The notes under the pieces were generated by a model. That model worked only from the letters and a program-made list of their open reading frames with translations, did not search any database and was not told the DNA's origin. From positions 1 to 33,905 of the forward strand of contig NZ_NQKW01000025.1 of NCBI RefSeq assembly GCF_002252625.1: 33,905 nt of DNA, in the 5' to 3' direction. The DNA comes from Synechococcus sp. 1G10. GTDB taxonomy: Bacteria > Cyanobacteriota > Cyanobacteriia > PCC-6307 > Cyanobiaceae. Positions 4,702 to 31,572 of the stretch are shown one piece after another (within the stretch, counting starts at the first letter, position 1; the number at the start of each line of letters is the position of its first letter). The position numbers were made by a program, and so were the translations under genes.

Positions 4702-4808
4702 CGTGTTCTCCTCTCTGTACTTCCAAGCCTAACGCTCAAGATCAGCGGCGGAAAGAAACTGGACGAAGCGATTTAGAACTCATTGAGACCGCCCGCTGTA
4801 GCTTGATG

Positions 4809-5744
4809 TTAGACGTCCAACTGCGGACGAGTGATCTTGCGACTCCAGGAAGGTGGCACGATCAAGCCGCGCCGCACAGCCAGGATCAGCATGACCGCGG
4901 TGAACGCAAGACTCACCAGCATGGCGATCAGCGATCCCTCCATGCCAGCGCTACCACCGGTGAGCAGTTCCGGGCCTTGGAAAGTGGTCTTGAACAGGCC
5001 CGGTGAGGCTGAATTACCTGATATGGCACCTGAGAAGACTTTTCCCATCGTGTAGTTCCAAGCTCCGTGAAGGCCAATGCCAATCCACAGGCGGCGGCTA
5101 ACCATAAAGGGCACGGCCAGCAATGGACCGTAAACGAAGGCGATGGACGCGACACCTGCAAAGGTTTCGCCTGTGTTCCCGGCGTGCACGTAGCCAAACC
5201 AAAGGGAGGAGACAACCAGCGCCACCCAGCCGCCGAACACGCCCTCAAGAATGCGAAACCACACGCCGCGGAATAGCAGCTCCTCGCCAAAGGGTGTAGT
5301 GAACGTCCCCCCAGTCACCCCTGCCACTAAGTTCTGCCAACGGTCGATACCCTCGATGCGGTAGAGACCGAGAGCCATGTCGATCAAGACGCAGGTGGTG
5401 AATAGGCCGAAGCCGAGCAGCAGACCGATGACGAGTTCGCGACCTAAACCGGGTAGAGCGAGTTCGCTGACCTCTCTACGTTCCAGAAAATGCGCGTAGC
5501 TCCAATACACGAGCAGCAAGTTCGCGATGATGAACGCGCCTGTGAACAGACCTGAGGGGATGAACAGGGGCATTCCTAGGCCTGATGGGAACGTCAGCAT
5601 GTAAGCGTTGCCTGACCAATGCACGTAGAGCAAGAGGTTGTTAAGCACCAACAAGCTGACAAACGGATTGCGCATGAAACGGAACAGCCTGAGGATTCTC
5701 GGATCCCTTTGTGCGTCAGCATTGGTATAGATCTTTGAATCCAT
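4809..5744 (-). CDS. CPBP family intramembrane glutamic protease (CAAX/Abi)
   Basis: This 311-residue polytopic membrane protein carries all three CPBP motifs: EELLFR with Glu154-Glu155 and Arg159, FGYVH at 183-187, and HGAWN with His226 and Asn230. These residues form the active site of Rce1-type intramembrane proteases. At least seven hydrophobic segments are visible. Bacterial members serve in bacteriocin self-immunity or peptide and prenyl-protein processing. The neighbours do not suggest a substrate. Confidence 0.88.
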   Translation of the reverse strand: MDSKIYTNADAQRDPRILRLFRFMRNPFVSLLVLNNLLLYVHWSGNAYMLTFPSGLGMPLFIPSGLFTGAFIIANLLLVYWSYAHFLERREVSELALPGLGRELVIGLLLGFGLFTTCVLIDMALGLYRIEGIDRWQNLVAGVTGGTFTTPFGEELLFRGVWFRILEGVFGGWVALVVSSLWFGYVHAGNTGETFAGVASIAFVYGPLLAVPFMVSRRLWIGIGLHGAWNYTMGKVFSGAISGNSASPGLFKTTFQGPELLTGGSAGMEGSLIAMLVSLAFTAVMLILAVRRGLIVPPSWSRKITRPQLDV

Positions 5745-6860: not shown

Positions 6861-9235
6861 GAGGCTGGTTTGGCCAGAGGCATCAGGCACTTGTCGGAAT
6901 CACAGCCGGCTGGTCCAGCTTCCACCAGTTCGCCCTGGTCGTAACGCTGCAGCGCTTCAAAGAAATCTGCGGTGCGGCAGCGGGCGGCCACCTCCTGCTG
7001 CAGGCGGGTGTAGGTGGCCTGGTCGATTGGCTCGAACGGCAGCCGCGGGAAGGTGGCATTGGCATCAAAGCGGGCCAGCAGCGCCGCCGAGATGTAACCC
7101 TCTCCTCCATCGATCGCCTGGTGGATCGCCTCGGCCAGTGGCTCGATCTCGTTTTCGCGGAACTCCACCGTGGCGGAGGTGTTATGGGCCGTGTAGTGCT
7201 TCTGCACCTGCATGTAGAAGTCGAACTGGGCCAGCGCCGAGAAGTTGTTGATCTCCACCGCATCAGCGCCTGGGATGTTCGCCCAGCTCACCTCAGTGGG
7301 GATCTCCACCAGCCATTCGCCGCAACGGGGATCAAAGGGATCATCCAGCAATCGCCCCTGCTCGTCCTTATCTGATTGGCTGGGCACGATCGTGTAGCCG
7401 TAGTCCATGCAGGCCAGCGCCACCGGATCATTCTTGCGGAAGGTGATGCGACGGATGAAGCGCTGCGCCTTGGGGGGATGCCAGCCGGGGGACGCGCCCG
7501 TGAGCAGGCTCTTGGTGCCGGCCGGTTGCACCGTGGTGCAGCGATTGGGGCGACGCAGGCCGTGGCGGTCGCAGTAGTCCCACACCGCTTCATTCACGAT
7601 CTGCTTCCAGCGCCCCAGGTACTCCGCTTCCTGGGCCTTGAACTTCAGCCCCTGCTCCGTTTCAGGGCGGCCCTGCTCCCACCACTGCAACCAGGCAGTG
7701 CCGAAGGCATGCACGAAGAAGTCGAAAAGGCCGGTGAAGCTCACCCCCACAATCGGATCCCAGGCGCGGCTCTGGCGGTAGCGCTCCACTTCGAAGTCGT
7801 GATTCAGCAGGCAGGCCACCGCCAGGCCGCCAGCTTTGAAGGCATCGGCCTGGGCCTGGTGGTCAGCCGGATCAATCCGGTTCAGATGAACTTCAGCCAG
7901 GTTGCAGTGGAAATCAGCACCCAATATTTCACCACATGGATTTAGACCATATCGCCCTAATCTGTGCTCCAATTCATTATCTTCAATCTCCGGATGATTC
8001 AGCTGCAACCAGCGGCCCGCCTCCTCGCGGCCCTGGTCGCAGTAGATGCCAACGAATTCATCGCGCAGCTCGGCGGTGGGGAGCAGATCGGCATTGGAGC
8101 GAGCAATCGCCTCCGGCGCGAACTGGATTGCTCCTTCGCCGCTCTGGAATTGCTTCACCACCGCCTCCAGCACCACTTCTTTCGAGGGGCGGCTGTGGAA
8201 CACCCGGGTGTGGTTGGCCATCCGCAGCGCATCGCGCTCGGGGTCGATGCTCCAGTTGCCCTCGGCGTCCTGCTTCCAGAGGTTCTCCTTGGCGCCAGCA
8301 GCGGATGAATCCTCCGCGGAGAACTGACGCATGCCGGCGCTGCGGCGGATGTTGCCGGCCACGATCGTGACCGCCGCCTCATCGATCAGCAGGCAGCACT
8401 CCACCGAGGTGAGCCGGCGGCCGATCGCCTTGTTGAGGATCTGGACCACGCGGCCGTAGAGGTCGCCCAGCTTCACGGGGTTGGCCATGCCGCCGAAGCC
8501 CTTGAGCGTTTCGCCCACCGGCCGCACATCGGAGAGGTCCACACTCACCGTGATCGGCGTCTCGGCGTCGAAGCGCTCATCACTGCTGAGTTCCAGCAGC
8601 AGCTGATAGCTGTCGACCCAGCCGCGGCGGGTGTCGCCCACCTTGATCTCGACCCGGTTGCCATCGATGCTGTGGCTGGTGGCCTCCTGGCGTTCTCCGG
8701 CGGGGGTGAGACCGATCGGGCTGACGCTCTCGATCACCAGCCGGTTGCGCACCAGAGGCAGCCGCTCAATCAGGTGCGGTTCGATGATGGCGCCGGTGCC
8801 GCAACCCATCATCGCCAGGTCCATCATCAGACCGAAGGCTTCCCAGTCGATCAGGTTGGTGGAGGTGCAGTTGTAGGCGCCGGAGAAGTTATGGCGCTGC
8901 TCGATCCAGGGCGTGCCACCGATCCACAGCCAGCGCCCCGACGGCAGCGCCTGCTGGTGCTTCTGCATGCGCCGGATCAGCTCCACTTCCTCGCCATTGA
9001 GATGGCCCAGCTGGCGCAGACCCTCCAGGTTGCGCTCGGACACCTGGTGCCAGCTCTCGCGGCCGTCCGCGGTGCGGCGGGAATAGGTGCGGTAAAAGAC
9101 GGGGTTCGCCGCCGGGGCCGTGGCAGGGAAATCGGAGTGGGGACCCGCGGGGGCGCCGGGGGTCGTTTCCGCGCTTGGCGGAGTGACCTGCGCGGTGCTC
9201 CGTTGGATGGTCGGGGGCGTAATCGACAAGGTCAC
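6857..9235 (-). CDS. nrdJ: Adenosylcobalamin-dependent ribonucleoside-triphosphate reductase (class II RNR)
   Basis: A 792-residue enzyme of the monomeric Lactobacillus RTPR type, which reduces NTPs to dNTPs with adenosylcobalamin as radical source. Cys434 in LNPCGEI is the predicted thiyl-radical residue; Cys123 (GAYNCTSTN) and Cys444 (DFHCNLAEV) fit the redox pair; Cys778 and Cys783 in CDSDKC at the tail fit the shuttle pair that passes electrons from thioredoxin. The N-terminal 40 residues are low complexity and outside the fold. No class I nrdA/nrdB appears in the window. Oddity: the codons around residues 409-446 are AT-rich and rare in this gene (see findings). The ORF is continuous, with no intein or intron. 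Confidence 0.95.
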   Translation of the reverse strand: MTLSITPPTIQRSTAQVTPPSAETTPGAPAGPHSDFPATAPAANPVFYRTYSRRTADGRESWHQVSERNLEGLRQLGHLNGEEVELIRRMQKHQQALPSGRWLWIGGTPWIEQRHNFSGAYNCTSTNLIDWEAFGLMMDLAMMGCGTGAIIEPHLIERLPLVRNRLVIESVSPIGLTPAGERQEATSHSIDGNRVEIKVGDTRRGWVDSYQLLLELSSDERFDAETPITVSVDLSDVRPVGETLKGFGGMANPVKLGDLYGRVVQILNKAIGRRLTSVECCLLIDEAAVTIVAGNIRRSAGMRQFSAEDSSAAGAKENLWKQDAEGNWSIDPERDALRMANHTRVFHSRPSKEVVLEAVVKQFQSGEGAIQFAPEAIARSNADLLPTAELRDEFVGIYCDQGREEAGRWLQLNHPEIEDNELEHRLGRYGLNPCGEILGADFHCNLAEVHLNRIDPADHQAQADAFKAGGLAVACLLNHDFEVERYRQSRAWDPIVGVSFTGLFDFFVHAFGTAWLQWWEQGRPETEQGLKFKAQEAEYLGRWKQIVNEAVWDYCDRHGLRRPNRCTTVQPAGTKSLLTGASPGWHPPKAQRFIRRITFRKNDPVALACMDYGYTIVPSQSDKDEQGRLLDDPFDPRCGEWLVEIPTEVSWANIPGADAVEINNFSALAQFDFYMQVQKHYTAHNTSATVEFRENEIEPLAEAIHQAIDGGEGYISAALLARFDANATFPRLPFEPIDQATYTRLQQEVAARCRTADFFEALQRYDQGELVEAGPAGCDSDKCLMPLAKPAS

Positions 9236-14236: not shown

Positions 14237-14926
14237 ATGACCATCGGTTCTGAACCTGCCCCCAACGGCAGTCCCTACGAAAGGCTCGGTGTCACCCCCG
14301 ACGCCAGCTTCGATGAGGTGCAGGCGGCCCGCCAGCATCAGCTCGACGCCGTCGCTGACGACCCCCAGGCCCGCGCCAAGGTGGAAGCCGCCTACGACGC
14401 GGTGTTGATGGAGCGGCTGCGGGAGCGGCAGCAGGGCAAGGTGAGCAGTGCTGCGGTCAGCGCCTCCAAGCGGGAGGAGATCAAACCGCCGGTGGCCAGG
14501 GTCCCCTCCCGGCCTGCCCTGCCCCAGTTGCCCTCCCTGCCCCAGTTCAGCGGCGCCAACAAGCTGCATGCTCCCAGCTTCTCCCTGCCCAACATCGCCC
14601 TGGCCGAAGGCCGTGAGCGCTGGTTTCCCCTGGTGGCCGATGGCTTGCTCCTGCTGCTGCTCCTCGTCACCCCGCCGGGTTCAGCCGAAGTGCTGCTGGC
14701 CCTGGCCACCGGCGTCACGGTGGTCAATCTCAGGCGCCGCAACGGTCGCTTCCTGGCCGCCGTGGGCTGGAGCTTCGCCCTGCTGAGCGTTGGCCTGCTC
14801 CTCGGCGGTCTGCTGACACTGGGGCTCGATCCGTCCCTGCCGCTCGGGCTGCCCCTGTCCTTGCCGCAGGTGCAGAGCCTGCCGGCCCTGATCCTGCTGC
14901 TGCTCGGCGCCCTGCTGATCGCCTAA
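14237..14926 (+). CDS. CPP1-like protein: J-like domain plus membrane segments
   Basis: A 229-residue protein. Residues 12-58 form a J-like domain ([20 protein letters not shown] ... [15 protein letters not shown]) without the HPD motif. A proline-rich linker follows, then three or four hydrophobic segments ([16 protein letters not shown] onward). This layout matches the CPP1-like/DUF3353 family, whose plant member stabilises protochlorophyllide oxidoreductase in the thylakoid. It is convergent with hslO, the two stop codons overlapping (TAA 14924-14926, TAG on the other strand 14923-14925). Confidence 0.85.
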
Positions 14927-15856: not shown

Positions 15857-16504
15857 TCAGGGCATCGTACGAAGTGCAGGCAGGGCCTGAAGGCTCCCAT
15901 CGCTCAGCCGCCAGGCCTGCCCCACCACCCCCTGGAACACCTCCGGCTCATGGGTGACCACCAGCAGGGCCCGCTGGCGGCCGAGCTGGGCGATCAGCTG
16001 CAGCACCTCGTGGCGCACCGACCAATCCAGCCCGGCGGTGGGCTCATCCAGCAGCAGCAGCTTCGGGTCGCGCAGCAGCTGCACCGCCAGGGCCAGGCGT
16101 CGCTGCTGGCCGCCGCTGAGCCGCTCCGGCGCCTGCTGCAACGACACTCCCTGCAGACCCACCTGGCCCAGCACCGCCTCCAGCCGCTCACTGCCCAGCC
16201 GCCGCTGCCCCAGCTTCAGCTCCTGGCCCACGCTCAGTCCGAGGAAATGGCGTTCGGGGAACTGGAACACCAGGCCGCTCAGCCAGCGCCGCTGGCGGGC
16301 TGTCACCGGCTGGCCCTGCCACAGGATCGTGCCGCCACTGGGTTCCGCCAGCCCGCTGATCAGCTCCAGCAGGGTGCTCTTGCCGCTGCCGCTGCGGCCC
16401 GCCACCAGCACCGGCTCACCTACCGGCAGCGTCAGATTGATGTCGCGCAGCACCGGCTCAGGCGTGGTGGCCGGGTGGTAGCGGACCGATCGGAGCTCCA
16501 GCAT
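15857..16504 (-). CDS. ABC transporter ATP-binding protein, ECF/Cbi-like, cyanobacterial type
   Basis: Taking the ATG of [12 protein letters not shown] as start gives 215 residues. Motifs in order: Walker [10 protein letters not shown] at 36-44, Q-loop [11 protein letters not shown] at 79-89, signature LSGGQQRR at 129-136, Walker [13 protein letters not shown] at 149-160, and a VVTHEPE switch. The FQFPE Q-loop is characteristic of ECF and cobalt/biotin importer ATPases. A closely similar stand-alone ATPase is conserved in cyanobacteria and plastids (ABCI11/NAP14-like). No permease is adjacent, so its partner must be encoded elsewhere. Substrate unknown. Confidence 0.88.
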
Positions 16505-22988: not shown

Positions 22989-23117
22989 AGAGAGGAAAAG
23001 GATCGTTTTCGATTCGCCTCCTTCTCACCCGCACCACCTCCTCTTATGGGTTTCCGTTTCAGCCGGTCCGTTCCCCATCCGCCCTTCCGGAGCCCAGGCC
23101 CCTGACCATCACCGCTG

Positions 23118-23136
23118 GCCCCGAGCGTGTCGGGGC
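23118..23136 (+). promoter_or_regulatory. GC hairpin leader, copy 4
   Basis: GCCCCGAGCGTGTCGGGGC forms a perfect 7-bp stem with a 5-nt loop and ends 19 nt before the ATG at 23156. The following bases CATCAATCGCC resemble the CATCCAGCC after the hairpin in the 27.9-kb copy. No gene ends just upstream on this strand, so it is not a terminator of a preceding gene. Confidence 0.65.
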
Positions 23137-23155
23137 ATCAATCGCCAGACAACCA

Positions 23156-23569
23156 ATGAAGCGCCTCCTCCTCGCCGCAGCACTACTGCTGCCTGCAGCA
23201 CCTGCCTACGCCTACCCACAATGGATGGTGGTCAGTGACGACCGCACAGTCGTCATCGACATCAATTCGATCAAAGACCACGGCCAGGGGGTGCGCTCTG
23301 TCGTGATGTCGAATCTGAGCACAAAAAGCATCACGCATGTTGCAATTGCCTGCAAGGAATGGCAATACGCATCTTTCGGCGTTGGCCCACGGCTTATTAG
23401 TCCAAGCACTGCAATTGAGGTGGCGGCACTGGCTGTCTGCCCTGGTGATCGCCGTGATGCGGTGCGCAGCGTGATGAAGACGCTGGTGCCGACCAGTGAC
23501 CCGCTGGAGGACATCCCCCATGCAGTGCCGCCTGTGCTGTCCCCACCCATCCCCAGCCCTATCTACTGA
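23156..23569 (+). CDS. Secreted protein, surface-adhesin-E-like, paralogue 1
   Basis: Residues 1-19 (MKRLLLAAALLLPAAPAYA) are a Sec signal peptide. The 118-residue mature part begins YPQWMVVSDDRTVVIDINSIKDHGQGVRSV, which resembles the W...-D-x-x-S-I-x-x-x-G opening of surface-adhesin E-like domains, and carries two cysteines (IACKEWQY, AVCPGD). It shares this layout with the product of 29950-30327. The C-terminus is proline-rich. A hairpin leader precedes it, and a 33-codon frame overlaps its stop (TGATG). Function unknown. Confidence 0.75.
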   Translation: MKRLLLAAALLLPAAPAYAYPQWMVVSDDRTVVIDINSIKDHGQGVRSVVMSNLSTKSITHVAIACKEWQYASFGVGPRLISPSTAIEVAALAVCPGDRRDAVRSVMKTLVPTSDPLEDIPHAVPPVLSPPIPSPIY

Positions 23570-23670
23570 TGCCTAGCAAACGCCGTGTCTTCGCTGTCCG
23601 TGTTGCCGTTACCACCCCCGCCATCATCGAGGAGATCGCCGCCAGCCACGGCTGCTGGAGCACAGCCTGA
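23569..23670 (+). CDS. Microprotein overlapping the upstream stop (33 aa)
   Basis: The ATG overlaps the TGA of the secreted-protein gene. The peptide MPSKRRVFAVRVAVTTPAII EEIAASHGCWSTA has a basic start followed by a possible strand-helix, loosely like the beginning of a ribbon-helix-helix protein, and may be a truncated gene. Only the coupling arrangement supports it. Confidence 0.35.
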   Translation: MPSKRRVFAVRVAVTTPAIIEEIAASHGCWSTA

Positions 23671-23830
23671 CCCACCACCACCGCCCAGCCCCTAGCGAAT
23701 CGCATAAACCCATTCCAACTGACGTCGTTCTCACCGGCACTTGTCGCGGCGCCAGCAACACCAGTGCCTATCGCCTGGCCGGATCTTGTGGGTCCACAGT
23801 CAACGCTTCAACCCCCTAACCCAGGCGCTA
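23671..23830. other. Intergenic, no gene recognised
   Basis: A 71-codon plus frame (23741-23956) exists, but it lies largely antisense to the IS5-type transposase fragment and is probably a shadow. I see nothing else here. Confidence 0.4.
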
Positions 23831-24004
23831 CTACGTCTGATCCGTCAGCGTGGTCTCCATCTCATCGAAGAAGCGCTGGCGACGCGTACTCTTTTTTGCG
23901 TAGGTCTGCTCGTAGTCCGTGAAGGCCCAGCTGGAGGGGGCTGCTATCCGTTCTAGTCTCAATCTTGGATCTGGACTGATTTTAGCGGGTTTTTCAGATG
24001 TTCC
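23831..24004 (-). mobile_element. IS5-type element fragment with transposase N-terminus (copy 2)
   Basis: On the minus strand, from the end word GGAACATCTGAAAAACCC at 24004, the fragment runs into a frame reading SSWAFTDYEQTYAKKSTRRQ RFFDEMETTLTDQT before TAG (23831-23833). FTDYE ... KKxTRRxxFxxEM is the usual N-terminus of IS5-family DDE transposases (about 300 aa when complete). Only about 35 residues survive. The end sequence matches 21281-21365 in inverse orientation. Confidence 0.72.
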
Positions 24005-24120
24005 TTGGGTGGCAGACGGCTGCTTGCGGATCTTGCTACCTAATCAAGTCGGGGTTTGGAGCTGGATCAATTCATCATGCTTACTGGAATTTCTAGCTCG
24101 GCCCTAAGCAGTTTCGTCTA

Positions 24121-25200
24121 TTACGCGCGGATTGTCAGACCGGTAGGGTTATTCAGGTCAGAATGCAGTATAACTTGATCGGCAGAAACATTCCCATCTG
24201 CTCCCGAAGGAAATGCTACTAACCTGCCGGATATATCGGAAGCATAAATCCTTCCAGCCTCATCCACTGCAATCCCAAATGGCTCCATAAAATCGATACT
24301 TGAAATAGTACGGGCAGGCGCGACATTTCCATTCGCGCCGGGCGAAAAGATTAAGATTCCGCTTCTCAGGGGATTGGGGTTAGAGGTTGTACTCCGATTG
24401 ATCACGAATAGTTTATCAGTGCCATCAATCCAGATATGACCAGGATTATCTAGGCCTGAATTGCTTCCAGTTATGCTTATGGTGAATGCTGGAGACACAA
24501 AGCTGTTGGCCTGAACCACGAAACCTCTAATCTCGCCTCCATTTGCTTGGGTAGGATCAGAAACAAAAACCATTCCAGATGAGTCCAATGCAATCCCGCA
24601 CAATGCCGAAAGACCCGTTGCAAGCCCTCCGGAAGGCTGACTTAGCATAGGAGTTGATGGACTAAGTGCTGCACTGGTCGAGAATTCAACTACTGTGCCC
24701 TCCCCTTCAATTCCGTTTGCAACCAACACATTGGCGGGATTATTGCGTCTAACTAGTGCAATCGGATTTCTAAGCGAATCTAGGGGAATGACGCCAGGAC
24801 TAATGCTTACTGATTGGATGGTGAAGAGTGGAGGAGCATCGCCGTGTGCGTCTTCAGCATAAACAGTTATGAATGGCTCGTCGACACCCGGTATCGCAGG
24901 ACCAAGGTTCGCGACCCATATTCGATTTAATCTGTCAACCGTAACGTCAATTGGGTTTTGCAGGCCAGTAGCATAGCCTTCAATCTTTCTTAGTGGATTA
25001 GTACTGATTCTTCCATTCTCATTTAACTCAAAACCCAGAATGCTATTGCCGCCATGATTTGCTACATAGAGCTCTCGCGCCGGTGCACTAAAGGGAGGCG
25101 GATTGATTCGAGGAAAGAGTATTCTGCCGACGAATAGAAACCCGGATACAATTGCCACCGCAATTAGGACTAAAAAGCCGTTGGCAATTGAATACTCCAT
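24121..25200 (-). CDS. Membrane-anchored beta-propeller (NHL/SMP-30-like) protein
   Basis: I start at the ATG of MEYSIANGFLVLIAVAIVSG, giving 359 residues; 16 codons upstream are open. One membrane helix (about 5-28) is followed by a secreted propeller with recurrent blades: LYVANHGGNSILGFE, RIWVANLG, GIALDSSGMVFVSD, HIWIDGTDKLFVIN, GIAVDEAGRIYASD. The repeated xxVDxxGxIYVxD pattern is that of NHL/SMP-30 six-bladed propellers. Codon use is AT-richer than in the core block, consistent with foreign origin. Ligand unknown; there is no enzyme motif. Confidence 0.85.
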   Translation of the reverse strand: MEYSIANGFLVLIAVAIVSGFLFVGRILFPRINPPPFSAPARELYVANHGGNSILGFELNENGRISTNPLRKIEGYATGLQNPIDVTVDRLNRIWVANLGPAIPGVDEPFITVYAEDAHGDAPPLFTIQSVSISPGVIPLDSLRNPIALVRRNNPANVLVANGIEGEGTVVEFSTSAALSPSTPMLSQPSGGLATGLSALCGIALDSSGMVFVSDPTQANGGEIRGFVVQANSFVSPAFTISITGSNSGLDNPGHIWIDGTDKLFVINRSTTSNPNPLRSGILIFSPGANGNVAPARTISSIDFMEPFGIAVDEAGRIYASDISGRLVAFPSGADGNVSADQVILHSDLNNPTGLTIRA

Positions 25201-25332
25201 TAGGCCTCTTGAATAGTGAGTATTATTACTACGCAAAATGTACCGCAAACCAGATCCATGTCCTGATTTGCCTCTTGAAAGTTAATGCCTGCCAATTAAT
25301 CCAATCACAGGATCTTCTTATAGCTTCACTTT

Positions 25333-25695
25333 TTGCAAAGGCCTCGCCTGGTTAGCAGTAAATCTGCTGATGGCTGGAGCAGCCTTCCCAGCCGGCCATT
25401 AGCCAGGAAAGACGAGGCATGCGAGTGGGTGGCGGCGTTTGTCGACTGGTACAGCCACCCGGGCGGCACCGCCACAGCGGCATCAAATTCGTCACGCCCC
25501 ATCAACCTCACAGCGGAGCCGCCAGCACAATCTGCAAGCAGCGAGCCGATGCCTGCGAGAAGCTCCGTAGGACAAATCCATCACGCTGGAGCCGAACCAC
25601 CCCGCTGCTTGCACCAACCCGTAGAAGTGTGGATCAACAAGCCACCAGAAGAGCCCGAACCGATCTACGCGTTACCCTTAATTCAAGCCGCCTGA
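25333..25695 (+). pseudogene. IS3-family transposase (OrfB) C-terminal remnant with frameshifts
   Basis: Joined across two frameshifts the plus strand reads EACEWVAAFVDWY, then HSGIKFVTPHQ, KQRADACEKLRRTNPSRWSR, then VEVWINKPPEEPEPIYALPL to LIQAA and a stop at 25693-25695. WV-X-FVxWYN-HRHSGIxFVTP is the hallmark C-terminal rve/DDE part of IS3-group transposases (IS407/IS2-like), followed by the usual WxNPP tail. Only about the last 120 residues remain; no matching OrfA or terminal repeats were identified. Confidence 0.8.
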
Positions 25696-25771
25696 GTGGC
25701 AGCCAAGGAGTGACAACCTCCCTGAAAGTCACCGGGCCTGCTTAGACTTGAGGGAACTTACGGATTGGCTT

Positions 25772-26413
25772 ATGCTATCAACGAAAAGACTTACGCGCGC
25801 ATTCCTTGCCTCACTTGTAACCGCATCTCCTTTTCTGTATCAAGACTCTGTGCTTGGCCAGGTTTTTGACGCCCTCTGCGAAGGTGACACGAAGTGCAAG
25901 ATTATAGTTGGCGATCAACTTCTCTCGGCAGGCTCAACCAATGTGCCAGCAAATAGAATTATCTCATGGGGTGAGACTGAGGCCAAATCAAAAAGAAAGC
26001 CAGAGCTTTGCCTGCTAAGCATCACTGCATGCGCCCTGACTATCTTTCATGATTATCGTTACTATGTTGATTATGCGACGGCTGATGGCGAATTGAGAAA
26101 GCTAGACTTCCGGTTTATCAATGACAAGCCTGCTAAGCAGCTGTCTCGCAAGCTGACATCTCTTACCAATCTCGCAAGCGGTCAAACCAGTGAAAAAACT
26201 GCGAGTTGGGCTGATGCAAGACGAGGAGAAGTTAAATACCAGAAATTTGTCGAAAGCCTAAATTGCTCACCGACCCTAAAGCCTTACAAGTGTAGCTACA
26301 ACACATATCTAGAGTCAAATCCCGCTGCCAAGGCGTGGGCCAAGGCCAACCCTTCACTAATACAAAGCCAAATGGTTCTAATGAAGGCAATAGAGGTACT
26401 CCCAAAGCCTTAG
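25772..26413 (+). CDS. Secreted hypothetical protein
   Basis: I prefer the ATG of MLSTKRLTRAFLASLVTASP over an upstream TTG because it opens a signal-peptide-like N-terminus (about 30 residues, cleavage possibly near VLGQ). The 213-residue product has paired cysteines (DALCEGDTKCK, LCLLSITACAL, LNCSP/YKCSY). Tyrosine-rich HDYRYYVDYATADGELR suggests beta structure. AT-richer codons than the core block. I recognise no family. Confidence 0.65.
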   Translation: MLSTKRLTRAFLASLVTASPFLYQDSVLGQVFDALCEGDTKCKIIVGDQLLSAGSTNVPANRIISWGETEAKSKRKPELCLLSITACALTIFHDYRYYVDYATADGELRKLDFRFINDKPAKQLSRKLTSLTNLASGQTSEKTASWADARRGEVKYQKFVESLNCSPTLKPYKCSYNTYLESNPAAKAWAKANPSLIQSQMVLMKAIEVLPKP

Positions 26414-26632
26414 TCTACACTCATGTAACACGAGAGGCCCCCCATTTCAGGAAAGATGTCACCCAACTTATTCGTACACCCGGGGGCTTGAGGACATGAC
26501 TAATGCGCGGATATAGCGAGGCCGTCAGGGCTGATGTGAGGAGGTAGATGAGCCCGCCGCACAGGCAGAGCGTGGCCCGGATGTCAGAGGAGTTGGGCAC
26601 GATCTTATCCGTGAGATGACAGATGCTCGGGC
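26414..26632. other. Gap with a doubtful TTG-started frame
   Basis: A minus frame 26421-26636 begins at a TTG overlapping the stop of the next gene (TTGA) and contains a hydrophobic stretch (CLCGGLIYLLTSALTASLYP). It may be a decayed membrane protein at the end of the operon. No other support. Confidence 0.3.
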
Positions 26633-26812
26633 TCAACAGTCACCAGTCGCCTCACCGCCCAGCGCGATCACGACCCGATGCAACTCCTCCATCTGGTCCA
26701 AAAGCTCCACTCGCTCCGCTGACGTTGAAGACGGATCGCGGATCTGGGCCATGATCTCCGCAAGCTCCAATAGCAGTGCATCACGCCGAACCAGGCGGTC
26801 ATCAGGGTCCAT
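26633..26812 (-). CDS. Small helical protein (59 aa)
   Basis: The ATG of MDPDDRLVRRDALLLELAEI overlaps the stop of the upstream 30-codon gene (TGATG); a GTG one codon earlier is also possible. The peptide is acidic and almost wholly helical (LLELAEIMAQIRD, AERVELLDQMEELHRVVIAL), like a short coiled coil. A similar small acidic helical protein lies at 31592-31771. Function unknown; it may be an accessory or dimerisation partner of the GIY-YIG protein upstream. Confidence 0.55.
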   Translation of the reverse strand: MDPDDRLVRRDALLLELAEIMAQIRDPSSTSAERVELLDQMEELHRVVIALGGEATGDC

Positions 26813-26904
26813 CACTCAGTGCCCAGGTCCAGCTCATCGGCCAGGGCCAGCACAGCGCCGAGCGTTAAAGGGATCACTGTACGTTCATGTTTCTGGCTGA
26901 TCAT
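26812..26904 (-). CDS. Microprotein between two overlapping genes (30 aa)
   Basis: The ATG overlaps the TGA of the GIY-YIG-like gene, and its TGA overlaps the ATG of the next gene. The peptide MISQKHERTVIPLTLGAVLA ends LADELDLGTE. It is too short for family assignment. Its position, filling exactly the space between two genes by stop/start overlaps on both sides, is the main evidence. Confidence 0.5.
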   Translation of the reverse strand: MISQKHERTVIPLTLGAVLALADELDLGTE

Positions 26905-27617
26905 CACTGACCCATCGCTGCCATCAGCGCAGCAAGCTGAGGGTCAGTCAGGTGGAACAGCTCGCGGTTGCCCGCACCAGTCACTTTCTGGTCTTTGATC
27001 TGCCTATGGATGGCCTTTTCGATGGCGACCGCTTGGTCCATGCTCTGCACCTTCATCAGTTGCAGCGTCACGGCTGGCACGGGCAGCACGTTCTGCTCCG
27101 CATCACGACGGTCGGGGTTGTTGGTGATGCCTACCTTCAGCCAGCGGGTGCCGTCTGCCAGGGTCCATTGCTTGAGATAGACGAAACCACAGGTCTGTGA
27201 GCGTGCGTCGTTGATTGCGGCGGCAATGCTCGCGGCAAGTGCGTTGTCCGCGCCTGCCACTTGCGGGCGGGTGGCTTGGGCAAGCCTGGCTGATTTTTCG
27301 GCTTTGAGCTTGGCTTTGATGATGTGGGTTCGGTGCTGCTTTAGTTCTAGTTCTACAACTTCTAATCGCGCTTTGTATTTTTTAAAGAAAGGGAATTCGC
27401 TGCTCATGTGCGCCATTCTCTTAAGCAGTTGGTTGATGATGGCGATGGCTTCCTCGGTTTCCGCGAGGGTGAGTTTGCTTGCCTTGAGTCGACATGCCTG
27501 GTTGCAACGCGAGGTGGTAGCCGCCTGGCAGTTCCCTGTTGTCCAGCCGAGCAGGTTGGGGGCTGCGATGGGTTCGTAGGCTTTATGTCCCCACGGATCG
27601 GGAAGGGCGTCGGTCAT
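26904..27617 (-). CDS. GIY-YIG/T5orf172-like nuclease-domain protein 1
   Basis: I start at the ATG of MTDALPDPWGHKAYEP (237 residues), directly behind the hairpin leader; the open frame upstream overlaps other features. The N-terminal half has a coiled-coil-like helix (about 80-115). The C-terminal domain (144-203) reads GFVYLK ... RWLKVGITNNPDRR ... QAVAIEKAIHRQ, corresponding to the GIY, YIG (here KVG), Arg and Glu positions of T5orf172/MUG113-type GIY-YIG domains. This subgroup is common in phages and islands. Activity is plausible but unproven. Confidence 0.75.
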   Translation of the reverse strand: MTDALPDPWGHKAYEPIAAPNLLGWTTGNCQAATTSRCNQACRLKASKLTLAETEEAIAIINQLLKRMAHMSSEFPFFKKYKARLEVVELELKQHRTHIIKAKLKAEKSARLAQATRPQVAGADNALAASIAAAINDARSQTCGFVYLKQWTLADGTRWLKVGITNNPDRRDAEQNVLPVPAVTLQLMKVQSMDQAVAIEKAIHRQIKDQKVTGAGNRELFHLTDPQLAALMAAMGQ

Positions 27618-27651
27618 GGGTCGGTAGGTGTGGCGTGGAAAGGAATGGGAT

Positions 27652-27669
27652 GCCCCGATTGCTCGGGGC
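27652..27669 (-). promoter_or_regulatory. GC hairpin leader, copy 1
   Basis: GCCCCGATTGCTCGGGGC: 7-bp stem, 4-nt loop, 34 nt before the start codon at 27617 and after the stop of the zinc-ribbon gene (27680). Flanks GTGGAAAGGAATGGGATGCC and GGCGGGCG (plus strand) recur in copies 2 and 3. Confidence 0.65.
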
Positions 27670-27679
27670 GGGCGTTGGG

Positions 27680-27862
27680 TCAGGAGGTGCAGCGGAGACA
27701 GCGCCACGCCGTCCCCTCTGGCCTCCGCATACAGCCGCCCAACACCGCCACCGCCTGACCTGCCTCCACCTGGGCGATGGTCTCGGGGACGGGAAAGCCG
27801 TAGATCACGGGCAGCATGGGGGCAGCGCAACGCGGGCAGAGCGGTGGGTCGGCGGTGGCCAT
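27680..27862 (-). CDS. Small zinc-ribbon protein
   Basis: A 60-residue protein with two zinc knuckles: CPRC at 9-12 and CLRC at 55-58 (WRCLRCTS). Between them MLPVIYGFPVPETIAQVEAG and AVLGGCMRRPEG follow the layout of a widespread family of tiny bacterial zinc-ribbon proteins (PMLPIVYGYP...GGC...WRCxxC). It probably binds one zinc ion; partner unknown. It is preceded by hairpin copy 2 and followed by copy 1. Confidence 0.78.
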   Translation of the reverse strand: MATADPPLCPRCAAPMLPVIYGFPVPETIAQVEAGQAVAVLGGCMRRPEGTAWRCLRCTS

Positions 27863-27894
27863 GGGGCGGCTGTAGTGGCGGTGATTGGCTGGAT

Positions 27895-27913
27895 GCCCCG
27901 ATGCGCTCGGGGC
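27895..27913 (-). promoter_or_regulatory. GC hairpin leader, copy 2
   Basis: GCCCCGATGCGCTCGGGGC (plus strand) forms a perfect 7-bp stem with 5-nt loop, 32 nt before the zinc-ribbon start at 27862 and just after the stop of the 67-aa gene. The conserved neighbourhood extends about 60 bp. Confidence 0.65.
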
Positions 27914-27929
27914 GGGCGGACCGCTGTGG

Positions 27930-28133
27930 TCAATTCATCAGGGCGCTCAGCCGTTCCTCATCCGCCCAGAAGGCATCAGGATCGTGGGGTGGTTCGGTCG
28001 CATCAGCAGGCAGGCGGCTGAACATGCGCAGCTGCGTCATCAGGCGGATGCGCCCTTCACGGCGGCAAAGCTGCTCGTCGGTGAGATCAGGGCGCTCAAG
28101 GCGCAGTTCTTCGATCGAGGGGGGCGGTTGCAT
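27930..28133 (-). CDS. Small hypothetical protein (67 aa)
   Basis: MQPPPSIEELRLERPDLTDE begins a small, charged, helical protein (EQLCRREGRIRLMTQLRMF, DPDAFWADEERLSALMN). No family recognised and no signal peptide. Support comes from good third-position GC, ATG start and position inside the leftward stack with hairpin leaders on both sides. Confidence 0.55.
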   Translation of the reverse strand: MQPPPSIEELRLERPDLTDEQLCRREGRIRLMTQLRMFSRLPADATEPPHDPDAFWADEERLSALMN

Positions 28134-28162
28134 GGCTGTGGCGAGGGTGGCGGTGAAAGGAA

Positions 28163-28182
28163 TCCCCAGATGCGCTCGGGGC
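28163..28182 (-). promoter_or_regulatory. GC hairpin leader, copy 3
   Basis: Plus strand TCCCCAGATGCGCTCGGGGC: the same hairpin with one extra A bulged in the left stem, 29 nt before the start at 28133 and after the stop of the secreted-protein gene at 28196. Upstream flank GGTGGCGGTGAAAGGAAT matches copies 1 and 2. Confidence 0.6.
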
Positions 28183-28195
28183 GGTCGGTGGTGGA

Positions 28196-28603
28196 TCAGC
28201 GAACCGTGAACATGACGGTGGCGTAGCGGCGGGGCGCGGGTTGGCTCGCAGCGCCGCTGCCCATGCGATAGGTGGTGCGGATCGTGTAGTTGCCGGACTC
28301 GGGCAGCCGAACCCCTTGCTTATCGTTTGGGGCGCAGTAGCTGCCGCCGCCGCAGCCCAGCTCACGGCCTGATGGCGTAACGACTGTCCAGGTATAGACC
28401 TGTTCGCTGCTAAGCCAGATGCGCTGCCCTTTTGCCATTCCCAGCGCGAAGCTCTTGTCTGCTGTGAACTCGTCATGCCCTGAGGTCACATAGCCTGCCC
28501 AAAGTCCTGAGTCAGATCCAGCGGCGAAGCGAATCGGGGTCTGGGCGCAGACAGGGCTTACCGTCAGGGCGACGGCAGCGGCGATGGCGACAAAACGGTT
28601 CAC
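28196..28603 (-). CDS. Small secreted beta-sandwich-like protein
   Basis: GTG-started; residues 1-20 (MNRFVAIAAAVALTVSPVCA) are a signal peptide. The 115-residue mature domain (FAAGSDSGLWAGYVTSGHDE, GMAKGQRIWL, WTVVTPSGRELGCGGGSYCA, RLPESGNYTIRTTYR) has the strand rhythm of prepeptidase C-terminal (PPC)-like sandwich domains. A disulfide between the CGGGSYC cysteines is possible. It follows one copy of the 165-bp duplication. Function unknown. Confidence 0.72.
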   Translation of the reverse strand: MNRFVAIAAAVALTVSPVCAQTPIRFAAGSDSGLWAGYVTSGHDEFTADKSFALGMAKGQRIWLSSEQVYTWTVVTPSGRELGCGGGSYCAPNDKQGVRLPESGNYTIRTTYRMGSGAASQPAPRRYATVMFTVR

Positions 28604-28623
28604 GGCTTGATTTGCTGGTGTGA

Positions 28624-28788
28624 ATTGGTGGCTGGACTTACGAGCCTTGGATGCGTCGGACTAGGGGCGACCATGCGGACCCGCATTGAACGCATCACCG
28701 TCGGGTACCCACTCTTGAACCGTCTGCATGGCATCCACCTGATCAACTTCCTCGGGTGGCACTGTCTGGTTCTGGGCAGGCTCTGCCA
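28624..28788 (+). repeat. 165-bp direct repeat, copy 1
   Basis: Starts ATTGGTGGCTGGACTTACG and contains CGCATTGAACGCATCACCGT and GGGTACCCACTCTTGAACCG; ends near TTCTGGGCAGGCTCTGCC. It matches 29780-29941 over its whole length with small indels. On the minus strand it precedes the gene starting at 28603. Confidence 0.88.
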
Positions 28789-29779: not shown

Positions 29780-29941
29780 ATTGGTGGCTGGACTTGCGTG
29801 CCTTGGATGCGTCGGGGTAGGGCCTTCTTCACACCCGCATTGAACGCATCACCGTCGGGTACCCATTCTTGAACCGTCTACGTGGCATCCATCCGATCAC
29901 CACCTCGGATGGCGCTCTCTGGTTCTGGGCAGGCCCTGCCA
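29780..29941 (+). repeat. 165-bp direct repeat, copy 2
   Basis: Matches 28624-28788 with the core CGCATTGAACGCATCACCGT-CGGGTACCCATTC intact. On the minus strand it ends 16 bp before the start of the gene at 29763 and follows the stop of the secreted-protein gene at 29950. The reading frame of copy 1 is broken here by a 1-bp indel and a TAG. Confidence 0.88.
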
Positions 29942-29949
29942 GCGGGTGA

Positions 29950-30327
29950 TCAATAATTAATGACACCGGAGTAGTCCGGTGCCTCGGGCTCGGTGGTCGC
30001 TACTGGCACCTTCAATGCGCGGCGCATCGAGGCCTGGTTTTCACCGGGGCAGATCGCATAGGCCATTACTTCACCGTTTGTCTTCGTCGAAATCGGAAGC
30101 CAGCCAGAGCCGGTATTGAACTGCCAGGTTGGGCAATGGAAAGATACGACCACAGCCGGTCCTGATGCGAGGCTAAGAGTTAGTGATTTCACGCCTTTGC
30201 CGTGATCTTTTACTGAGTTGAAATCAAAGGAATGCCCTTTGGACAGTGGGACCCACTGGGGGTAGGCCATTGCGGGAGCCGGTGCCAACAGTGCGGCCGC
30301 GGCGAAGATGGAAAGAAAGCGGTTCAT
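29950..30327 (-). CDS. Secreted protein, surface-adhesin-E-like, paralogue 2
   Basis: Signal peptide MNRFLSIFAAAALLAPAPAMA, then YPQWVPLSKGHSFDFNSVKD-HGKGVKSLTLSL, matching 23156-23569 in the YPQW, DFNS-KDHGxGV and cysteine positions (FHCPTWQF, AICPGE). 125 residues, C-terminal part acidic and proline-containing. It is the first gene of the leftward stack and sits 71 bp from the double palindrome d/e. Function unknown; it resembles surface-adhesin E-like domains only weakly. Confidence 0.75.
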   Translation of the reverse strand: MNRFLSIFAAAALLAPAPAMAYPQWVPLSKGHSFDFNSVKDHGKGVKSLTLSLASGPAVVVSFHCPTWQFNTGSGWLPISTKTNGEVMAYAICPGENQASMRRALKVPVATTEPEAPDYSGVINY

Positions 30328-30522
30328 GGGTTTGCGGTGGTGAAGCGGCGGCGGTGGTTGCTTCGTCCCTTCACAATCCCCCGGACGCCCCCACCGCTAC
30401 ATCCCCCAGCCGGGGGATCACCCGCAAGATCCCCCAAGTGGGGGAGAGATCGATCCCTTCGTGCTGGATCAGCGGGTGTGCCCACGGCGGGTCAGACGGA
30501 TGACCAACGCGCAACAGCTCCT
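30328..30522. other. Upstream region of the leftward stack
   Basis: Contains the double palindrome listed at 30399-30447. No gene recognised; plus-strand frames here are shadows or lead into the IS481 remnant. The promoter of the leftward gene stack is likely in this interval, but I cannot point to a -10/-35 pair. Confidence 0.35.
30399..30447 (+). repeat. Double palindrome of the ATCCCCC-N4-GGGGGAT family (copies d and e)
   Basis: ATCCCCCAGCCGGGGGAT (30401-30418) and ATCCCCCAAGTGGGGGAG (30429-30446) stand 10 bp apart; the unit equals the reverse complement of 21141-21187. The preceding CCCCACCGCTACATCCCCC matches copy b. Confidence 0.82.
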
Positions 30523-30744
30523 AGGCGAACCAGTCCCTACACGCCTCGAACAAACGGCAAGGCGGAGCGATTCATCAAGACAATCCTGGCCGAGTGGGCC
30601 TACGCGATGGCCTACGCCAATTCAGACGATCGGAACCGGTAGCTACCCAGCTATCTGGCGATCTAAACCGGGCGCAGGTGCCACATGGTCTGGGAAGGTC
30701 TTACCCCCTTTGAGCAGCTCAGCCTGCTGCGGGCTGCTGAATGA
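30523..30744 (+). pseudogene. IS481-type transposase C-terminal remnant
   Basis: The frame reads SPYTPRTNGKAERFIKTILA EWAYAMAYANSDDRNR, a TAG, LPSYLAI, a TAA, then GRRCHMVWEGLTPFEQLSLL RAAE and TGA. YTPRxNGKAERFxxTxxxEWAYA is the catalytic-Glu region of IS481-family integrases. A TGG-to-TAG and a TAC-to-TAA change account for both stops, so the stretch has decayed in place. The first 200 or more residues are absent. Confidence 0.82.
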
Positions 30745-30789: not shown

Positions 30790-31572
30790 ATGGATCTGAC
30801 CCATCTCCTGCAGAACATCCCCACGCTGCTGGAGGAGTACGGCCAGCTCCTTGAGGGGAAGACCATCGTGGCCTGCCTCGGCAACACCAGGTGGCTGGGC
30901 GCCTTCATCTGCATCAACCCGATCACCGAGCACGTGGTGGGTGCCTCCACCACCGAGGAGGAGGGCTATCAGCACGTGCTGCAGCACAGGCCCCACTTCC
31001 TGCTCGTGAGCGAGAGCCTGCATGAGGGGGCGGGGGTGTCGCTGGTGAGGCGCGCCGAGCGGTTCCATCCCGATACACGCACCATCCTGATCACCAACCG
31101 GGAGTCCACCGCCGTGATCGGCGAGGCCCTGGAGGCAGGCTGCGATGCGATCTGCTTCGAGACGGAGGACTTCACGCCTGTGTTCCGGATCGTCGCCGGC
31201 GGTGGCGTCTACTACCCCAAGGAAGCGGCCAGGGTCCTGCAGCAACAGCAGCAAAGCCAGCGCAGAAGCGATGCGACCCCGGTCGAGAGCCTCACCGAGC
31301 GGGAGGTCGAGGTACTCACGGGGGTGATGCTCGGACTCTCTAACAGAAACATCGGCGAGCGGCTGTACGTCTCCGCGGAAACAGTGAAGACCCACGTAGG
31401 CAATGTGATCAGCAAGCTCCAGGCGCGAGACCGCACCCATGCCGCCGTTCTGGGCGTGGCTCTGGGGATCCTTTCACTGGAAGCTGCTCTGAACACCGGC
31501 CCGGCCTTCAGCCTCTGGGGGGATGGCACGGCTGCAGAAGCCCTGAACAAGGCTTCTTCTCGTGGCTCCTGA
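30790..31572 (+). CDS. LuxR-type regulator with an atypical receiver domain
   Basis: A 260-residue protein. The C-terminal 167-225 region (LTEREVEVLTGVMLGLSNRN IGERLYVSAETVKTHVGNVISKL) is a GerE/LuxR helix-turn-helix. Residues 24-125 look like a receiver fold (TIVACLGN ... HFLLVSESLHEG ... TRTILITNRESTAVIGEALEAGCDA), but the usual phospho-acceptor Asp at the end of strand 3 is replaced by Ser74-Glu75. It may act independently of phosphorylation. A Gln-rich linker joins the domains. No kinase gene is nearby. Good core-like codon use. Confidence 0.87.
   Translation: MDLTHLLQNIPTLLEEYGQLLEGKTIVACLGNTRWLGAFICINPITEHVVGASTTEEEGYQHVLQHRPHFLLVSESLHEGAGVSLVRRAERFHPDTRTILITNRESTAVIGEALEAGCDAICFETEDFTPVFRIVAGGGVYYPKEAARVLQQQQQSQRRSDATPVESLTEREVEVLTGVMLGLSNRNIGERLYVSAETVKTHVGNVISKLQARDRTHAAVLGVALGILSLEAALNTGPAFSLWGDGTAAEALNKASSRGS

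Follow-up and report, generated by a model that had tools for sequence, protein, structure and literature searches.

A repeated stop-to-start spacer with a GC-rich hairpin in accessory islands of Synechococcus sp. 1G10

The window analysed here is the whole 33,905-nt stretch of contig NZ_NQKW01000025.1 (assembly GCF_002252625.1) of Synechococcus sp. 1G10, in which a sequence-only reading had described the hairpin GCCCCGA-N4-5-TCGGGGC at four places as a mobile or duplicated 5' leader with a regulatory role, placed before four unrelated small genes. The results showed that a leader before four genes is half of the story and that the element is an intercistronic spacer, which begins at the stop codon of one open reading frame (ORF), carries the hairpin and ends before the start codon of the next. 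The four spacers of the window (c1 to c4) and the frames around them are as follows.

23046 to 23105, plus strand: 19-codon ORF, possibly a gene remnant, whose TGA is the stop codon of c1
23103 to 23155, plus strand: spacer c1 (TGA 23103-23105, hairpin 23118-23136, end before ATG 23156)
23156 to 23569, plus strand: 137-aa secreted-looking protein, downstream of c1
26904 to 27617, minus strand: 237-aa GIY-YIG-like (T5orf172/MUG113) protein, downstream of c2
27618 to 27682, minus strand: spacer c2 (TGA 27682-27680, hairpin 27669-27652 with a GCAA loop, end before ATG 27617)
27680 to 27862, minus strand: 60-aa protein with two CxxC motifs, between c3 and c2
27863 to 27932, minus strand: spacer c3 (TGA 27932-27930, hairpin 27913-27895, end before ATG 27862)
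27930 to 28133, minus strand: 67-aa protein with no family match, between c4 and c3
28134 to 28198, minus strand: spacer c4 (TGA 28198-28196, damaged hairpin 28182-28163, end before ATG 28133)
28196 to 28603, minus strand: 135-aa secreted-looking protein, upstream of c4
30401 to 30418, no strand assigned: palindrome II (ATCCCCC-N4-GGGGGAT), in front of the minus-strand run of genes, of which it is likely the control site

The spacers in the window and in the genome

The exact hairpin pattern was verified at 23118-23136, 27652-27669 and 27895-27913, and these three matches in the window, compared with none in each of 100 dinucleotide shuffles, are far above chance. At 28163-28182 the reported bulge is present as a single additional base in the 3' arm, but the outer pair is lost as well, and when c4 is folded with its flanks the best predicted fold is another structure than the named hairpin. 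The four hairpins lie 19, 34, 32 and 29 nt before a start codon and each has the orientation of the gene that follows, as had been described. The three spacers at 27.6-28.2 kb do share sequence (50-51 identical positions over 72 aligned columns in each pair), but the 18-mer GGTGGCGGTGAAAGGAAT quoted as common to them is present once only, at 28146.

The labels given to the genes stand in part. The 237-aa protein matches MUG113 and T5orf172, both GIY-YIG-like, a match obtained on a frame with one additional codon. In the 60-aa protein called a zinc ribbon two CxxC motifs are visible by eye, but Pfam gave no match; the 67-aa protein matches no family, and the 137-aa protein looks secreted by eye and is 44% identical to a 125-aa protein at 29950-30327. 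The Rfam scan of the window gave 0 matches at gathering score. The statement that no gene ends upstream of 23118 holds only if tiny ORFs are ignored, since a TGA lies 12 nt before the stem and closes the 19-codon ATG ORF (47 codons if read from GTG). The three minus-strand hairpins start 10, 16 and 13 nt past the stop codon of the preceding gene for c2, c3 and c4, respectively.

Across the genome we found nine related stop-to-start spacers with unrelated flanks, which bears out the earlier word "duplicated": the four in the window, two on contig C13, and one each on contigs C7, C23 and C76. The seven copies with a start codon are 53-74 nt long. The generic hairpin pattern alone matched four times, three times in the window and once on C7, and a covariance model built on five copies (R1) added C13:3510 and C23:78909 with E values of 2e-6 and 0.003. 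Two weak R1 matches were judged real, namely C76:18393 (E 0.94), backed by BLAST against C13 with 85% identity over 41 nt (E 1e-4), and C13:2924 (E 6.35), accepted on its sequence and its position between two genes, while other weak matches, for example the T-tailed terminator C76:28568, were left out of the set. In a second model built from all nine copies (R2) and run over 188 kb, the nine scored at least 41 bits and the next best match 17 bits, a separation that is partly circular as the same nine copies built the model. Read in the direction from stop to start, the copies have a common order of TGA, CCACCACCGCCC, hairpin, ATCC and a CACC-rich stretch; in the message this reads as a stop, about 12 nt rich in C and A, GCCCCGA-GCGCA-TCGGGGC, about 28 nt rich in C and A without a Shine-Dalgarno motif, and a start.

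Searches beyond the genome

Among the genomes searched, sequence comparison indicates that the spacer repeat is private to this genome. R2 found no strong copy in the other 299 of 300 family genomes (the own genome, G000, included), and its weak matches in 12 other genomes (E 0.014-0.084) were taken as noise because about 30 chance matches are expected at E 0.1 per genome. The generic hairpin pattern matched in 4 of 60 genomes, the own one counted. The match in G003 is inside a coding gene, presumably an epimerase by its likeness, and those in G047 and G043 have flanks unlike the own copies by eye. A pattern scan of named genomes gave 115 stretches, and among the 80 of these that were listed the two with a cyanobacterial title, L081 and L109, are the same coding gene as the G003 match. 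With R1 in nine genus genomes, the inspected matches outside the own genome (11 loci besides L005) were by eye without this hairpin. BLAST of the spacer gave nothing better than E 0.01 against phages (19 and 78 records) and nothing better than E 0.03 against plasmids (128 records), and the majority of the rows shown were within coding sequence. None of the titles listed in literature searches, several of which were aimed at neighbouring questions, names such a repeat, which does not of itself prove that it is unpublished.

In viral contigs, the pattern CGCCC-GCCCCGA-N5-TCGGGGC gave eight matches, six of them different sequences by eye, with the loop GCGCA in four of the six; the TGCCC variant, intended as a control, gave one match. 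Four viral contigs (L185, L189, L192 and L200) contain the 24-mer made of CGCCC and the hairpin with the GCGCA loop. Its model scores there are expected since it was found by the pattern, and in the first three of these contigs a stop codon lies 12, 9 and 14 nt before the hairpin. Over 133 pattern sites, CGCCC precedes 5 of 23 GCGCA loops in comparison to 2 of 110 others (two of the five being the same sequence), and the hairpin follows a stop at 5 of 23 GCGCA sites in comparison to 12 of 110 others; 21 of the 23 GCGCA sites are also inside some open frame of at least 100 codons. This link between flank and loop is suggestive only and would suit shared origin as well as convergence. Two of the window proteins had no relative in the viral contigs.

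Position of the hairpin and its possible roles

Between stop and stem there are 10-16 nt (mean 12.5, sd 1.7, n=8; C76 excluded for its lost 5' arm), and between stem and start 19-39 nt (mean 27.6, sd 8.0, n=7; C7 and C76 excluded for want of a credible start). The variances of the two distances differ (Levene p 0.003). Because the first is nearly constant and the second variable, it is the end of the upstream frame to which the unit is anchored, and the description as a 5' leader, for which a conserved distance to the start had been suggested as a check, is poorly supported. A stop codon stands at the same position in all nine copies, and in five it belongs to a credible gene (c2, c3, c4, C13:2924 and C13:3510); the other stops close a doubtful 162-codon ORF (C76), a 10-codon ORF (C23), the 19-codon ORF (c1) or no ORF (C7). 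As to whether the hairpin occurs equally often at 3' ends, the answer is both, as a start also follows in seven of the nine. In all seven copies with a credible downstream gene the orientation along the genes is the same, and all nine copies lie outside the credible flanking genes. The ten flanking proteins are mutually unrelated, the best non-self match (E 0.049 over 23 aa) being probably one between signal peptides. The 300-nt flanking DNA has in common only the overlap of neighbouring copies, the hairpins, one palindrome II and short chance matches, and no common sequence was found beside the start codons across the copies.

A stem 10-16 nt past a stop codon would meet the leading edge of the terminating ribosome. 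Since the stem keeps a nearly constant place after the stop, and hairpins at such a place are reported to act in Escherichia coli, we propose tentatively, with somewhat less than even confidence, that the spacer is a duplicated punctuation hairpin acting like stop-proximal repetitive extragenic palindromes (REPs). That one intercistronic spacer has been copied about nine times within accessory islands of one picocyanobacterial genome is shown by the nine related copies, their unrelated flanking genes and the lack of a strong copy in the relatives searched; it probably spread through duplication or recombination of island DNA and not by a dedicated transposase. With a ribosome on the stop codon the stem would lie at its leading edge and be able to fold, and the folded stem might slow or retain the terminating ribosome, protect the upstream frame at its 3' end, and set it apart from the next frame with its unstructured leader.

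According to passages of PMC12306157, E. coli REP hairpins no more than 15 nt from a stop stall ribosomes and lower translation, and a part of PMC13289151 describes REP hairpins as stabilising 3' ends. Seven of the eight measurable copies are within 15 nt of the stop (10-13 nt). The likeness to the REPs in those passages of PMC12306157 consists of a short extragenic GC-rich palindrome in several similar copies per genome, within about 15 nt after a stop. REPs differ from the spacer in being present in hundreds to thousands rather than nine copies; the spacer is always post-stop, and no Y1 transposase of the REP-associated tyrosine transposase (RAYT) type is found here. Having the palindrome and not the RAYT, the spacer is a REP only in a loose sense.

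Several results weigh against this proposal. The c3 stem lies 16 nt past its stop, beyond the 15-nt limit for REPs, and the C7 copy has no credible gene on either side. The check for compensatory changes that had been suggested gave none in any of the seven stem pairs over the nine copies, and five of the nine stems are damaged. Only c2 clearly folds better than its shuffles (z -3.3), with the other eight at -1.5 to +0.6. Moreover, the same part of PMC13289151 describes Synechococcus elongatus as largely without stabilising 3' hairpins. In favour of the proposal, the hairpin is the best-conserved part of the spacer. Among its seven pairs, four never vary, three depart only by broken cells, and 94.8% of 58 cells pair. 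The stem is perfect in four copies (c1, c2, c3 and C7), bears a bulge, a lost base or a mismatch in four (c4, both C13 copies and C23), and has lost its 5' arm in C76. Given the damage to five of the nine stems and the want of compensatory changes, an RNA role of the hairpin is plausible and not proven, and the regulatory role earlier ascribed to it is not demonstrated.

The strongest rival, which we nevertheless think unlikely, is that the spacer is a neutral by-product, copied with island DNA by recombination and functionless, its hairpin decaying. Decay of the stems without compensation and a C7 copy without genes are what it would predict, and other island sequences are repeated too, for example one of about 165 nt at 28616-28788 and 29780-29948 with two relatives on C23. 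It fits poorly with conservation that peaks in the stem, with the almost constant distance from stop to stem, and with copies whose flanks have nothing in common.

The lack of any sign of selection on pairing, together with the perfect 7-bp inverted repeats in four copies, would also suit a palindrome acting as DNA, that is, a binding site for a regulator or nucleoid protein, a reading that is also conceivable for the extended start-associated sequences (ESAS) of phages. We consider this quite unlikely, as a DNA site would need neither the distance tied to the stop nor the single orientation along the genes, and a separate palindrome (II) already precedes the operons. In passages of PMC3203893, the start-associated sequences (SAS) and ESAS of Cluster K mycobacteriophages are likewise inverted repeats by the starts of unrelated small genes in one orientation, and paired changes gave the authors little reason to see an RNA stem in them. 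SAS stand 3-7 bp before the start in that account, whereas the stem of the spacer stands 19-39 nt before it at a fixed distance to the stop, so membership in SAS/ESAS is ruled out. By analogy, the spacer may work most like stop-proximal REPs and be laid out most like SAS/ESAS.

A GC-rich stem soon after a stop codon is also a feature of Rho-independent terminators, and hairpins with a similar stem and a T tail occur at three places in the genome. The bases after the stem of the spacer are ATCC, ATCA, TACC, TTCC and similar, with no T-run in the copies other than c4, and the next gene follows 19-39 nt on; the spacer was thus rejected as an intrinsic terminator, only c4 being listed by a loose terminator scan. 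That the hairpins are not simply terminators, as had been argued, therefore holds for most copies. A partial terminator or attenuator lowering expression along the operon is improbable in our judgement, as the scan shows no excess (8 vs 7.0 +/- 2.7) and the Rho profile TIGR00767 found nothing over its cut-off of 509.45 bits in the own genome (best 23.7 bits). A literature abstract likewise gives cyanobacteria as lacking Rho. Since cyanobacteria lack Rho and S. elongatus has largely no stabilising 3' hairpins, a hairpin repeated behind stop codons in an island of a cyanobacterium would offer a concrete and easily tested case of message punctuation.

Insertion after TGA of a mobile hairpin, of the REP/RAYT type or a miniature inverted-repeat transposable element, would account for the unrelated flanks and for a TGA kept even where no gene ends (C7, and the tiny ORFs at c1 and C23). 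We hold it to be very doubtful: there are only nine copies, no clean target duplication was seen, and the Y1 transposase profile PF01797 gave 0 matches in the own genome, control genomes being positive in 5 of 14, so the earlier word "mobile" is not supported in the REP sense.

An integron attC-type recombination site behind gene cassettes is extremely improbable. It would explain why small unrelated genes stand in a row, each with a repeat behind it, and an intact integron integrase is encoded elsewhere in the genome (C60:1157-2092, 464.5 bits, cut-off 265); however, no integrase matches on the window contig, and in a crude scan no pair of RYYYAAC/GTTRRRY boxes as in attC overlaps any of the nine copies. 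As side observations, the intact integrase is on the minus strand, the crude scan found no attC-like site over the initial 12 kb of C60, a broken integrase lies at C23:96027-96395 (minus strand), and the window has a lone attC-like site (GTCTAAC...GTTAGGC) at 4727-4814 (minus strand).

PRE1 and the tRNA-linked island repeats of Prochlorococcus are further short repeats in picocyanobacterial islands; the spacer differs from them in that it is not a tRNA fragment and has a fixed intergenic place after stops.

Island operons, palindrome II and other repeats

On the minus strand of the window, palindrome II (30401) is followed by a 125-aa secreted-looking, a 220-aa, an 89-aa and the 135-aa secreted-looking gene, and then by a spacer, the 67-aa gene, a spacer, the 60-aa gene, a spacer and the 237-aa GIY-YIG-like gene. 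On C13, palindrome II precedes two secreted-looking genes, after which come a spacer, a third such gene, another spacer and an 86-aa gene. For c1 and C23, a tiny ORF is all that lies between palindrome II and the spacer. From the spacing we infer that the island genes are co-transcribed. None of GGAG, GAGG, AGGA and AAGG was found in the 35 nt before eight window island genes (0/8; a ninth row was dropped as its start was mis-set), in comparison to 8 of 17 other window ORFs, whose starts are unverified and whose motifs are not always properly spaced.

How newly arrived small genes of islands join working operons is poorly known. The spacer could be a reusable stop-hairpin-start joint for assembling operons, with its own stop, a punctuating hairpin and an unstructured leader free of Shine-Dalgarno motifs, by which unrelated small genes would be slotted into regulated island operons; we regard this as speculative and clearly unlikely. 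If the unit were such a joint, one could view island operons as built from separate pieces, and the same 24-mer in four viral contigs would mean that phages use or carry it.

The palindromes II of the window and the regulator gene near them are as follows.

21167, 22849, 22934, 30401, 32554 and 32721: palindrome II
30790 to 31572, plus strand: LuxR-type regulator of 260 aa

Exact copies of palindrome II number 10 in the own genome, 4 in genome G008 and 0 in the other seven genus genomes. Close relatives of the window regulator (87-97% identity) were found only in the own genome (two more copies) and in G008 (two), with more distant LuxR-type matches in all nine genus genomes. Upstream of the regulator, palindrome II stands at a distance of about 370 nt on C5, 340 nt on C23 and 280 nt on G008-C41, and a copy with one mismatch at about 350 nt on C9. 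Judged from these sequences, the LuxR-type protein and palindrome II look like a candidate regulator and operator for the island operons, a link which is perhaps more testable than the spacer and merits its own study.

Other repeats were observed in the islands. The one of about 165-180 nt lies between island genes in four copies that are 77-85% identical (window 28616-28788 and 29780-29948; L059, on C23, 4497-4678 and 5684-5860), at least one of which reads as a short ORF (MLAEPAQNQTV...). A short repeat with CATCGTTAACC...GAGGCGGGG occurs in the own genome and G008 (L060, on C76, 5007-5069 and 18494-18572; L066 6583-6660; L067 2905-2959), one copy being about 60-100 nt from the C76 spacer copy. 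Beside palindrome II, window 30480-30642 (plus strand) holds a remnant resembling an IS-type integrase by eye (...NGKAERFIKTILAEWAYA...). The 3' end of a tRNA-Pro-like gene, recognised by eye, is repeated at L062 (C13) 15887-15945, L064 (C9) 8325-8403, L063 (C7) 14589-14633 and L067 (G008) 8432-8510, a pattern that the attachment sites of a tRNA-integrated island would be expected to show.

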